Shown here in pieces: positions 30,422 to 34,432 of a stretch of 64,000 nt of DNA (the first letter of the stretch is position 1; each line of letters starts with the position of its first letter). The position numbers and the translations under genes are program-made. Origin of the DNA: Microcoleus sp. FACHB-831 (GTDB lineage Bacteria; Cyanobacteriota; Cyanobacteriia; Cyanobacteriales; FACHB-T130); contig NZ_JACJON010000073.1 in the NCBI RefSeq assembly GCF_014695585.1, positions 1 to 64,000 of the forward strand, given 5' to 3'. The notes below the pieces were generated by a model. The model saw only the letters and a program-made list of their open reading frames with translations. It did no database searches and was not told the origin of the DNA.

Positions 30422-31231
30422 TCACTTTCCAGCAGCTTTGGCGAACTGGCTCAAATCCATAAATTTTGGCCCCCCCTTACCAACAATTAACGGCAGATTT
30501 CCATTCCATTTTTCTATTGCTTGTTTTTGCAATAACTCCGTTGTCAAAGTTTCGCGCACCAAGCTTTGTGCCTCAGCCTCTCCTCTTGCTAAATTCACCT
30601 TAGCTTCAGCTTCTTTTGAGGCTTTCAACGCTATAAATTCTGCCCTTTTTGCTTCCTGTTCGGCAATCTGTTTCGCCTCTACCGCCTCGCCAAATTGCTG
30701 CGAGAAATGGACGTGAACCAGGGAAATATCATCAACCGAGATATGATAGCTATTTAGCCTTGCGGTCAATCCCTCGTCTAATCCAGCTTTCACTTCTCCA
30801 CGCTTGGTAATTATTTCTTCAGCAGTGTACTTTGCTATTACTGCCTTTAGAACTTCTTTAACAGCTGGGTTGATAATCCGTTCGACGACTGCATTTTCGT
30901 CCCCAATTTCTTGATAAATGGCATTTGCTTCCTGTGGAATAATATGCCAGTTGAGAGCTACATCGGTAAAAACATCCTGGAGATCCTTCGAGGACGCCTC
31001 GGCGGAAATTTCCTGTTTTTGCACCCGGATGCTCAACTTTTTCACTGAATTTGCTAGAGGGATAATTAGGTGAATTCCTTCGCCTAGTATTGTGTCTTGC
31101 ACTTTACCAAACTGCATCAAAACGCCGCGTTCGCCAGCGCTTACAACTGAAAAAGGTGTAAATACTATAGCTAATAGCAATAAAAATGCAGTTAGTTTAC
31201 CAGCCTTAGAAAGCGATTTATTTTTTTTCAT
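30422..31231 (-). CDS. Prohibitin / SPFH-domain membrane protein, 269 aa
   Basis: One N-terminal membrane helix is followed by the SPFH domain. It has GERGVLMQFGKVQDTILGEG, ISAEASSKDLQDVFTDVALNW and the later coiled-coil region EAVEAKQIAEQEAKRAEF and EAKVNLARGEAEAQSLV. This is the prohibitin order. Such proteins form large rings in membranes that organise proteases and other complexes; in cyanobacteria they sit in plasma or thylakoid membranes. The gene is next to the membrane Hsp70-like pair in the same direction but 306 bp apart. Confidence 0.88.
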   Translation of the reverse strand: MKKNKSLSKAGKLTAFLLLLAIVFTPFSVVSAGERGVLMQFGKVQDTILGEGIHLIIPLANSVKKLSIRVQKQEISAEASSKDLQDVFTDVALNWHIIPQEANAIYQEIGDENAVVERIINPAVKEVLKAVIAKYTAEEIITKRGEVKAGLDEGLTARLNSYHISVDDISLVHVHFSQQFGEAVEAKQIAEQEAKRAEFIALKASKEAEAKVNLARGEAEAQSLVRETLTTELLQKQAIEKWNGNLPLIVGKGGPKFMDLSQFAKAAGK

Positions 31232-31537: not shown

Positions 31538-33514
31538 CTATTGAATCAGAATTACTGCCTCTTGAGCCTTGTTATTTAGAGCCTTTTTTAACTCTTGTCC
31601 CACTTTCTCAATTAGTTCGTCAAAAGCTCCCCGATTCTGAGTCAGTTGTTCCTTCATAACCTTCTCTAACTCAGGCTTTGTTTGTTCGCACGTACTGTCG
31701 ATCTTGCTGTCGCTCAATAAATTAGAACGCATCCAACTAGGAATATCCACAGTTGTCTTAATTGTGTCTTGAATCCTGCTCCTAGTTAGCTCCACCCCAG
31801 CAGCAAGAACTGAGGCTCCATATACCAGTGCAATTGGCCAAGTCAAATGCCCCGTTAATATCAGAGCGATGATGCTACCGATAGTGCTTCCACCAATTAC
31901 TACACTGACTATAAATGCAACCGTATCGGCAAGAAGAGCATCGCCAATCGACAACTCCGGATTAACTACACCAGCGTCGATGCCCTCCTCAAACCTCAAG
32001 CTGCTTCTAGATATCTGGAACTTGCGACAAAGGGGGTCGGTTTCTGCGGCTAAATCGGGTTGGATTTTGCTGTTAAACCAAGTGACAGATTGATTTTTAA
32101 TTATCTGCTGCGCCTGAGTGCTTTTGAGCCACTGTTCTGCCCGACTTTTCATAGAAGTTTCCAAGTCAGCCAAAGTGCGTATTTTGTTTTTTTGCCAGTC
32201 TTTCAAACTTAGTTTGACTGCGTTTTCAATCAGGCTATCTGACAGCGGCTTACTCAACAATTCGATTAACTCTGGGATATGTTTCTCGACGAGTTCGTTC
32301 AGCTTGTTTGAATCGAACAGTTTGTTGAGTTCTTCTTTAAATGCAGCAGCACGCAAATCCCATCTTCCTACCCGCGCTAAACCTAATGCAATGCATTGCT
32401 CCGGATTCGAGTCAGGACGAACCTGAGTTTCCGGTTCTGGGAAAATTTCCTCGCAAATTTCACGAGTAAACTTCATGCGAGACGCACCGCCAGTCATCAG
32501 CAGAACTTTGGGTACAATGCCTTGTTTTGCTAACTCTTCCTTCGCCTCGCTGACTGCATCGCGAAACGCCTGAATCCAACTTTTATTCCCCAGTTCTGGC
32601 AAAGGCTTGTTTAAGACCTCTTGCGCGATCGCTTTGTTAACTTGGGGTATAAAATAAATCTGTTCGTTGATAGACTCAAATCCGCGTGCAAATGATTGTG
32701 GAGAGCTGTATAACTGTTCGTTAGAAAAATAGTCTTCCTTTGCTTTGCGACAAGCAAGTTCGCAACGAGCTTGATGGTGCGGATATTCTTCAAATACTCT
32801 TTCAAGTAACGCTTTCTGCTCGTGTTTAGCCACAGTTCGCGCAAAAATTGCCTTGTCTAGCAAGGATGCTCCCAGAGAGTTACTCCCAAAATCTATGGGT
32901 ATCTCGTACAAACTCTTAACAAGCGTAAAATCCGTAGTTGAGGAGCCAATATCAACTATTAGCACCGCAGATTTGAGTTTGTCATATTCCAGTTTCCCGG
33001 CTTCCTTGGCTTGCATGAAAGCAGCCCGCGACTCCGGTACAACGCTCAATATGGGAATGCCAGCTTCTTTAAGTAACTTTTGATATTCCTCGCGATCGTT
33101 AGCTGACCATCCTGAAGGACACCCAACGTAAAATTGGCTGGTTTCCCCACCTTCAATTTGTTTGCTTTCTTTTAAAAGATTGTAGTAAGTTTCCAGGAAG
33201 CTGCGGATAGTCTTCCTATAATTTAAATCGTTGTTTGGTCTTTCCTTGAAAGAAATTTTGAGTTGAGTAACGCCAGCTTGAATTAATGCTTGCTCGCCGA
33301 CAAGATAGCCTAAATCGGGATGCCAGCCAAGAGCCGTAATTTGAATTTTCTTGCTATTAACTTCAAGCATCTCCGGCGGCTCGACGCTCTCCACATTCGC
33401 TTTAGCCACAGCTGTTTCGCCGTGCCCCAAATCGAACCCAATTGTTTCTAAAACTTGCATATTGTCTTGAAATAGATAATAGGTATTAACTGTTAGGGGA
33501 AAGCATTTTTCCAT
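31538..33514 (-). CDS. Membrane-anchored Hsp70/actin-like ATPase, 658 aa
   Basis: The N-terminal 390 residues follow the actin/Hsp70 ATPase fold. It has ETIGFDLGHGETAVAKA (phosphate 1), LKSAVLIVDIGSSTTDFTLV (phosphate 2) and KVLLMTGGASRM (adenosine motif). A helical region follows, then two membrane segments at about residues 530-575, and a charged helical C-terminal tail of about 80 residues. Ordinary DnaK has a beta-sandwich peptide-binding domain after the ATPase; none is visible here. The start is ATG 33514 with an AGGGGAA site; ATG 33460 would remove 18 residues. It lies 21 bp after its partner gene. A membrane-remodelling or membrane-protein quality role is inferred only. Confidence 0.7.
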   Translation of the reverse strand: MEKCFPLTVNTYYLFQDNMQVLETIGFDLGHGETAVAKANVESVEPPEMLEVNSKKIQITALGWHPDLGYLVGEQALIQAGVTQLKISFKERPNNDLNYRKTIRSFLETYYNLLKESKQIEGGETSQFYVGCPSGWSANDREEYQKLLKEAGIPILSVVPESRAAFMQAKEAGKLEYDKLKSAVLIVDIGSSTTDFTLVKSLYEIPIDFGSNSLGASLLDKAIFARTVAKHEQKALLERVFEEYPHHQARCELACRKAKEDYFSNEQLYSSPQSFARGFESINEQIYFIPQVNKAIAQEVLNKPLPELGNKSWIQAFRDAVSEAKEELAKQGIVPKVLLMTGGASRMKFTREICEEIFPEPETQVRPDSNPEQCIALGLARVGRWDLRAAAFKEELNKLFDSNKLNELVEKHIPELIELLSKPLSDSLIENAVKLSLKDWQKNKIRTLADLETSMKSRAEQWLKSTQAQQIIKNQSVTWFNSKIQPDLAAETDPLCRKFQISRSSLRFEEGIDAGVVNPELSIGDALLADTVAFIVSVVIGGSTIGSIIALILTGHLTWPIALVYGASVLAAGVELTRSRIQDTIKTTVDIPSWMRSNLLSDSKIDSTCEQTKPELEKVMKEQLTQNRGAFDELIEKVGQELKKALNNKAQEAVILIQ

Positions 33515-33535
33515 ATGGTTTCCCCTTTTGCCTTT

Positions 33536-34432
33536 TTACTTAATTGCTGGCTCAATTACCCGACCTCGGCGGAGTAAGCGATCGCCCTTAAACAAAGCAG
33601 GAGTTATGGTCACGTAATCTTTAGCGTCGCGATCGATATTTGGCTCAAAGTCAAAATGTTCGCGATCGCTCTGCCCTTCTTCCGGTCGATAAATCTGCAC
33701 GCGAATTCCCTGCTCCATCAAAATTTGTGGCAGAAGTTTAGTCAGCTCCAGCGCCATCTGCGGTCTTTCAAGAAATGACGCACCCGTTAACCTCTGAATA
33801 ACATTCAAGAGTTCTGGAAGTTCTTCTATACCGCTATCTTCGAGCGGCTTTTTCACTTCTTCAGTACGAGCAACTGCAACATCTATTGTATTCAGCGCAT
33901 CGGCTATGTTGTCTAAAAGGACTTTGCTATCAACCCGCACGATAGCTTGCGGTACTTCCACAGCTACAGCAGCAACTGAATTTTTTTCCTCCTCGTCTTT
34001 GTCAAGTTGCAGCGCAACTTCCAGTCCTACAAGCAGAGACATCAGCAATATCGCCATCCAAGCGCCAGAAGTAGTTCTAGACAAAGAGAACAAAGTGCTG
34101 AAGATGCCCGTGCAGATGAGTGCTTGTAGCACTTTCAAAATTAAACTTTTAGCGGAAAACCCTTTAGATCGAGCGGGTATTTGCGTCGTCTCTGGTTGCA
34201 AAACTTGCGTCTCGTTTGCAGCACTCAGGCTAGCGATGGACTGCCGCGTCGCATCCAGGAACAAGGACGCCAGACGTATCTGAGATACATTTAGTTTACC
34301 CGTGTAATTTTTCTCAAGTCCGTCGAGGCGGTTCTGAACTAACTCAACTACTTGATTGAGACTGGTTGCCTTGTCGATTTCTGTCTCAAGTTCGCTCCGT
34401 TCTTTGCCAAAAAGCGTCGATAGTGTTTTCAT
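33536..34432 (-). CDS. Membrane protein partner of the Hsp70-like ATPase, possibly GrpE-like, 298 aa
   Basis: The N-terminal part is a long helical region. Residues 97-117 and 123-143 are membrane segments. The middle contains a helical stretch with a VLLDNIADALNTIDVAVART core. The C-terminal 40 residues (KDYVTITPALFKGDRLLRRG, then VIEPAIK) resemble the beta domain of GrpE, the nucleotide-exchange factor of DnaK. This likeness, and the position 21 bp before the ATPase gene in the same operon, suggest an exchange or regulatory subunit. The likeness is weak, so the GrpE label is tentative. Confidence 0.55.
   Translation of the reverse strand: MKTLSTLFGKERSELETEIDKATSLNQVVELVQNRLDGLEKNYTGKLNVSQIRLASLFLDATRQSIASLSAANETQVLQPETTQIPARSKGFSAKSLILKVLQALICTGIFSTLFSLSRTTSGAWMAILLMSLLVGLEVALQLDKDEEEKNSVAAVAVEVPQAIVRVDSKVLLDNIADALNTIDVAVARTEEVKKPLEDSGIEELPELLNVIQRLTGASFLERPQMALELTKLLPQILMEQGIRVQIYRPEEGQSDREHFDFEPNIDRDAKDYVTITPALFKGDRLLRRGRVIEPAIK

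Follow-up and report, generated by a model that had tools for sequence, protein, structure and literature searches.

The gene pair

The stretch of DNA analysed here, referred to as the window, comprises 64,000 nucleotides (positions 1 to 64,000 of contig NZ_JACJON010000073.1) from the cyanobacterium Microcoleus sp. FACHB-831 (assembly GCF_014695585.1). On its reverse strand it carries two adjacent genes that very probably make up a single membrane ATPase module. The upstream gene (33536 to 34432), found as an open reading frame (ORF) and in a survey with a profile of its family, encodes a membrane partner protein of 298 amino acids (aa). It is followed after 21 bp, on the same strand, by the gene for an Hsp70-like ATPase (31538 to 33514; 658 aa as read). 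A first-pass annotation made from the sequence alone had placed an ATPase ORF 21 bp after the ORF of a membrane protein, and both ORFs and the gap are present. Each protein has one match in its own genome. The true start codon of the ATPase gene is uncertain. The ATG at 33514 is preceded by a Shine-Dalgarno-like sequence (AAGGGG); 32 of 35 complete relatives start at the ATG equivalent to residue 19 (33460), where the conserved part begins, and the alignment reaches residues 1 to 17 in none of the 35.

The segment from 32345 to 33448 is assigned to an Hsp70-type nucleotide-binding domain by family profile alignment and motif conservation. Alignments were built from the window's protein with 30 of the 35 complete ATPase relatives, from all 34 complete partners and from two further sets of eleven chosen rows, with L039 and L044 excluded as cut or split. 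A 10-row ATPase profile that includes the window matches 12 Hsp70 sequences with a probability of 97.8% and E 1.3e-12 (four of the 12 have strong Pfam HSP70 matches, and eight are the longest ORFs at weak matches to the ATPase query, not individually checked). With the 31-row profile, Hsc70 (5aqm) is matched at E 3e-5 along positions 69-361. An actin/Hsp70 ATPase fold had been noted from the sequence, and these profiles bear out a domain of the Hsp70 type. The single sequence gives only weak, below-cut-off matches to models (MreB_Mbl 4.8e-6, HscA 2.5e-5). It does not reach the gathering score of PF00012, being absent from the PF00012 matches up to E 1, and it is not among the eight HSP70 places that a Pfam HSP70 scan finds in its own genome. 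Two relatives, L078 and L184, exceed the PF00012 cut-off (23.4 and 24.5 against 20.6).

Among 27 motif positions inspected, 21 are identical in all 73 aligned full-length rows (among them L073, a fragment taken from a fused ORF), and the other six vary in one to six rows. Counted from residue 19, the invariant positions include D10, G12, F71, K72, E143, D170, G172, T175, D177 and G324, which, with the family-versus-Hsp70 alignment as a guide, we take to be the catalytic positions of Hsp70 (K72 by inspection). Because 21 of the 27 positions are invariant in every row, the window's ATPase is probably active. The ratio of nonsynonymous to synonymous substitution rates (dN/dS) of the ATPase is 0.09-0.11 in all six computable comparisons, the seventh being saturated; that of the partner is 0.16-0.24 in each of four comparisons against the window, and three Nostoc pairs give 0.06-0.27, with dS near or past saturation in most of these comparisons. 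AlphaFold models of the ATPase and the partner are poor (mean pLDDT 46.0 and 48.7) and were built on shallow alignments (31 and 35 rows). Foldseek with the ATPase model returns 398 matches, the best 50 of which are all Hsp70-family (best E 5.8e-4). Only one of the 398 reaches E <=0.001 and the TM-scores are about 0.2-0.3, so that this search is of supporting value only.

The ATPase domain is joined to a putative hydrophobic hairpin by an alpha-helical region (31931 to 32344), which is delimited by helices in the low-confidence model and by conserved residues; W422, W444, C478 and K480 are identical in 11 of 11 rows. The hairpin consists of two hydrophobic stretches near the C-terminus (31787 to 31930), in the position taken up by the substrate-binding domain in Hsp70. 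Of the 72 distinct full-length relatives, 70 show one or more hydrophobic windows in their last 190 residues, and one of the two without any is the L073 fragment. No substrate-binding domain is seen in the family, where the best stretches of the HSP70 model end by 374 of 599 and those of HscA by 356 of 600. The ATPase-versus-Hsp70 alignment extends to DnaK 462, with no meaningful similarity there by inspection. The early description of two helices near the C-terminus and no obvious peptide-binding domain agrees with these results.

The partner protein

The partner contains a two-helix hydrophobic stretch (34004 to 34147), recognised from its sequence and from hydrophobic windows in its relatives. 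A hydrophobic window lies at residues 70-210 in 66 of 71 partners, and at least two windows are present in 59 of the 71. In some distant relatives the stretch gives weak, below-cut-off glycine-zipper matches.

The C-terminal region of the partner (33548 to 33928), which ends in KGDRLLRRGRVIEP, is weakly GrpE-like (hhalign E 0.009-0.037, probability 1-4%). Its last 60 or so residues align in register with the end of GrpE (KGDRLLRRGRV versus LGERILRHAMV). When 73 partners are compared with GrpE alone, hhalign gives E 0.023 and a probability of 2.1%, and 4 of 200 column-permuted controls do as well; with GrpE plus paralogs it gives E 0.0093 and 4.4%, and none of 200 does as well (a second figure is E 0.010, again 0 of 200). 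For a smaller partner set against GrpE plus paralogs the E-value is 0.013, and 1 of 300 controls does as well. The paralogs were added since they looked like a bridge, a choice that favours the match in these comparisons (E 0.009-0.013). The whole partner against GrpE yields E 0.063 and a probability of 0.9%. The likeness is suggestive of resemblance, not of membership in the GrpE family, and the partner is at this stage a hypothetical nucleotide-exchange factor.

Some GrpE paralogs (L114, L115, L116 and L118) have, by inspection, an N-terminus that looks like a helix-turn-helix, and a Dps-like gene, also identified by inspection, adjoins three of them (L114, L115 and L118). L117 (2718-7001) encodes a 403-aa GrpE-like protein (Pfam 3.2e-5, below the cut-off) just before a protein read by inspection as NYN plus an Hsp70 domain.

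Distribution of the pair

Deep-profile searches covered cyanobacteria. In a sample of 386 cyanobacterial genomes, 14 contain relatives of the ATPase at E <1e-30, and another 11 give weak matches only (4.5e-7 to 9e-4), which are probably ordinary Hsp70s. The partner profile, run on the same 386 genomes, finds the same 14 and one weak extra (G156, 5.7e-4), and the two genes lie less than 1 kb apart in 14 of 14. Among 83 distinct ATPase loci, a number that includes partial views of the same genomes, 70 are accompanied by a partner gene on the same strand no further than 1 kb away. The 13 without one comprise seven contig-cut or partial views (L011, L044, L057, L127, L128, L129 and L191), one tandem copy (L190) and five others. 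The pair looks obligate.

In the order to which the window belongs, the ATPase is found at E <1e-15 in 77 of 388 genomes, and in the window's family in five of six. A copy resides on a conjugative Calothrix plasmid. Phages gave no match, and no viral contig was found with a short-pattern prefilter; the scan of contigs of other genomes relied on short exact strings from the window protein, which reach close relatives only. A contig labelled Candidatus Gracilibacteria (L042) carries the pair, with an ATPase 71% identical to that of the window, and is probably a misbinned cyanobacterial contig.

Genomic contexts of distant relatives

Four distant relatives of the ATPase are 28-38% identical to that of the window. 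A gene for a HerA-type ATPase is found on the same strand, no more than 1 kb away, in seven genomes (eight loci); most distant loci were picked for divergence, so these show what occurs and the seven genomes are not a frequency, and the HerA ORFs beside L185 and L194 are short. Six of the eight loci (L075, L076, L078, L187, L190 and L195) also have a metallopeptidase-like ORF further on. The arrangement in L076 (4676-13171), and also in L075, L078, L187 and L190, is an operon of the partner, the Hsp70-like ATPase, the HerA-type ATPase, small proteins (not all of them everywhere) and the metallopeptidase-like ORF. On two cyanobacterial plasmids (L122 and L123) an AAA protein or a GTPase precedes the same HerA, small-protein and peptidase genes, and Hsp70-domain proteins are encoded further upstream. 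The close HerA subfamily (>50% identity) is present in three of the 386 genomes and adjoins the pair in each.

Two other contexts involve TIR and dynamin proteins. In L184 (5162-7591) a TIR domain (TIR_2, E 1.9e-20) is fused to the Hsp70-like ATPase, which has the hairpin. In L183 (1-9000) the Hsp70-like ATPase is followed by the partner and then by two dynamins (E 6.4e-24 and 6.8e-18), the first of which matches LeoA (2.0e-30) and LeoBC (1.1e-23) in PADLOC.

Three unusual architectures were seen as well. L075 (6771-10007) carries two Hsp70-like ATPase domains head to tail in one ORF of 1078 aa, with hydrophobic windows solely near the C-terminus. L182 has a fusion in which a canonical Hsp70 domain precedes the Hsp70-like one. 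L123 (2916-5501) encodes, a few genes upstream of the HerA-type ATPase, an 861-aa plasmid protein with HSP70, GTPase and below-cut-off DUF697 regions.

In a tree of 27 chosen rows, some of them trimmed, the window is one of 10 rows that form a stand-alone clade (100/100). Another group of stand-alone rows has a HerA-linked group as its sister (97/93), the remaining HerA-linked rows fall in other parts of the tree, and at least two changes between the stand-alone and HerA-linked labels are required. The labels were assigned by the analyst, and L186 is labelled stand-alone while having no recognisable partner. HerA linkage may be ancestral. Its ancestry is uncertain because of long branches in the tree, for which DnaK, L191, L184, L186, L078 and L185 carry a warning.

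Proposed function and alternative explanations

Few ATPases are as well known as Hsp70, whose peptide-binding domain is regarded as its output. Comparison at the level of sequence establishes for the present family an ATPase domain of the Hsp70 type in which the motifs are conserved, hydrophobic hairpins predicted in both proteins, the pairing of the two genes and selection on them. The first-pass inference of an energy-dependent system at the membrane is supported in part; effects on protein turnover or thylakoid shape find no backing in this analysis. On the model of the Hsp70 ATPase domain, which moves its substrate domain, ATP binding and hydrolysis would drive movement, at the membrane, of the hairpin and helical domain, alone or as an oligomer. 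The GrpE-like C-terminus of the partner would reset the cycle by nucleotide exchange or would tether the ATPase at the membrane; the chances that it acts as an exchange factor are about even. Distant relatives are encoded in HerA-ATPase operons, fused to a TIR domain or next to LeoA/LeoBC-type dynamins, and for this reason the module may have begun as, or been recruited into, a nucleoside triphosphate (NTP)-driven switch of conflict (defence) systems, and the stand-alone clade of the window may retain the switch without a linked effector. A conflict role for the window's own clade falls short of an even chance. Taken as a whole, the reading of an obligate membrane ATPase module with a resetting or tethering partner and roots in conflict systems is evenly balanced between right and wrong, while the view that the two genes form one membrane ATPase module is held with high confidence. 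If the reading is true, the same switch drives membrane work, in an Hsp70 ATPase that is coupled to a hairpin in the membrane and has an obligate partner there. Many cyanobacteria of one order carry this uncharacterised and readily testable two-gene module, and the fusions and operons of its relatives connect Hsp70 switching with TIR, HerA and dynamin conflict systems. In a more ambitious form, the family of membrane-embedded ATPases would supply the NTP-driven switch for conflict systems of a new kind in cyanobacteria, with a HerA pump plus metallopeptidase, TIR or dynamin effectors; each member would have its own GrpE-like exchange factor bound to the membrane, the switch would act in a dynamin-like way at membranes, and the window would hold a stand-alone version. 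This extension is rather doubtful.

Several observations weigh against an obligate module with a GrpE-like partner and conflict-system roots. Five distant relatives lack a recognisable partner (L184, in 14 kb read, and L186, L192, L194 and L195), two with a shortened ATPase ORF, and L078 (the same as L060) lacks the hydrophobic hairpin. The structure models of both proteins are poor. Pfam GrpE (PF01025) matches none of 12 partners scanned; in a GrpE hmmsearch the partners are among the top at 1-4 bits (E >1) beside unrelated ORFs, which is not significant; the hhalign probability for partner and GrpE is 0.9-4.4%; and for the smaller partner set against GrpE alone (E 0.037) no fewer than 10 of 300 controls do equally well. 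The first-pass annotation had described the C-terminus of the partner as GrpE-like. This resemblance is weak and inconclusive, and on its account the first-pass observation as a whole, the main part of which holds, is only partly confirmed: the in-register alignment stands and betters most permuted controls, but the probability for the 73 partners is only 2-4% and the Pfam model is silent. Neither the ATPase nor the partner of the window has a PADLOC match. No effector is linked in the window's clade, and the window's own genome has no HerA relative by the query used; both findings fit a housekeeping role equally, as do the high conservation and the shared neighbours often seen at Nostoc loci (one neighbour family in 24 of 46 loci).

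Such a housekeeping role, along the lines that the first-pass annotation suggested, could be quality control or folding of membrane proteins, with the module pulling on these proteins or remodelling them, possibly together with prohibitin and FtsH. The Hsp70 ancestry of the ATPase, the hydrophobic hairpins of both proteins, the strong purifying selection on the pair, the mostly chromosomal location of the window's clade and its presence in five of six genomes of the same family are all consistent with it. However, no substrate-binding domain is seen, the prohibitin-like gene is found at no other fetched locus, presence is patchy in both the phylum sample (14/386) and the order sample (77/388), and relatives occur in conflict-type contexts. 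Quality control is an unlikely account of the module. A filament protein of the ParM/MreB type with a membrane anchor is far less likely. The Pfam MreB_Mbl match (E 4.8e-6), the NCBIfam BeeR match (E 6.3e-4) and the finding that MreB ranks first among the PDB matches of the single sequence (E 0.0058) and second with the profile point towards it, but the MreB score is below the cut-off (26.1 versus 27 bits), the profiles favour Hsc70 and the best 50 of the 398 Foldseek matches are of the Hsp70 family.

The remaining alternative overlaps the preferred reading. In a membrane-remodelling machine analogous to dynamin, an Hsp70-type ATPase would replace the GTPase, with a helical stalk and membrane hairpin, and would act as an ATP-driven oligomer. 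The layout of ATPase domain, helices, hydrophobic hairpin and helix fits this arrangement, as do the two LeoA/LeoBC-type dynamins that adjoin L183 and an E. coli plasmid on which two dynamins precede a distant HerA relative. The C-terminal region of the ATPase scores 30.2 against one L183 dynamin, with none of 60 shuffles and none of 166 membrane-protein controls as good, but identity in this match is 7% and it falls within plain helices, a feature for which the controls were not matched, and with the other three dynamins tested 14, 26 and 4 of 60 shuffles are as good. The L123 Hsp70-GTPase fusion and a DUF697-like protein of L076 likewise outscore all 60 shuffles, although their matches span just 28 and 15 columns. 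These comparisons give a hint of homology between the C-terminal region and a dynamin stalk. The low-confidence fold prediction also counts against this reading. A dynamin-like machine is a tentative prospect, on a par with the ambitious form of the conflict-system reading.

Relation to known systems

The pair resembles Hsp70/DnaK with GrpE in that the ATPase has a nucleotide-binding domain with phosphate and adenosine motifs and the partner has a weakly GrpE-like C-terminus. It differs in having no visible substrate-binding domain and in the hydrophobic hairpins of both proteins, and the Hsp70s and GrpE of the strain are encoded elsewhere in its genome. The portion of Kaur et al. 2020 (PMC7159879) drawn on here describes HSP70-GrpE pairs in conflict systems centred on GAP1-N2 GTPases and found predominantly in actinobacteria and firmicutes, some of which add an HSP70 that lacks the peptide-binding domain. 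Those systems share with the present family an Hsp70 beside GrpE in conflict operons, including Hsp70 domains without a peptide-binding domain. As far as that portion goes, theirs include GAP1-N2 and FNIII proteins, whereas the family described here is cyanobacterial, has membrane hairpins and stands alone in the window. The HerA, TIR or dynamin links are, moreover, confined to distant relatives. No GAP1-N2 or FNIII protein was noticed among the neighbour ORFs read, for which no GAP1-N2 or FNIII model was run.

The LeoA/LeoBC dynamin-like proteins are, in the part of PMC4159319 used here, an NTPase thought to act at the membrane. They are thus comparable as membrane-linked NTPases whose genes adjoin one relative (L183), but they are dynamin-type GTPases whereas the fold here is that of an Hsp70 ATPase, and the window's ATPase has no Dynamin_N match up to E 1. 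No paper on this gene pair was among the results listed by searches of open-access literature (preprints and most subscription journals lay outside the scope), which is no proof of absence.

The neighbouring prohibitin-like gene

A prohibitin-like gene (30422 to 31231; Band_7, E 1.7e-36) lies outside the module on the same strand as the pair. Among ORFs of at least 90 aa in 196 other loci, many of them short, it has no match at E 1e-5, and a link to the module was rejected on that ground. The gene had been singled out in the first pass as the next one on the same strand; it is indeed there, and it is taken to be an incidental neighbour.

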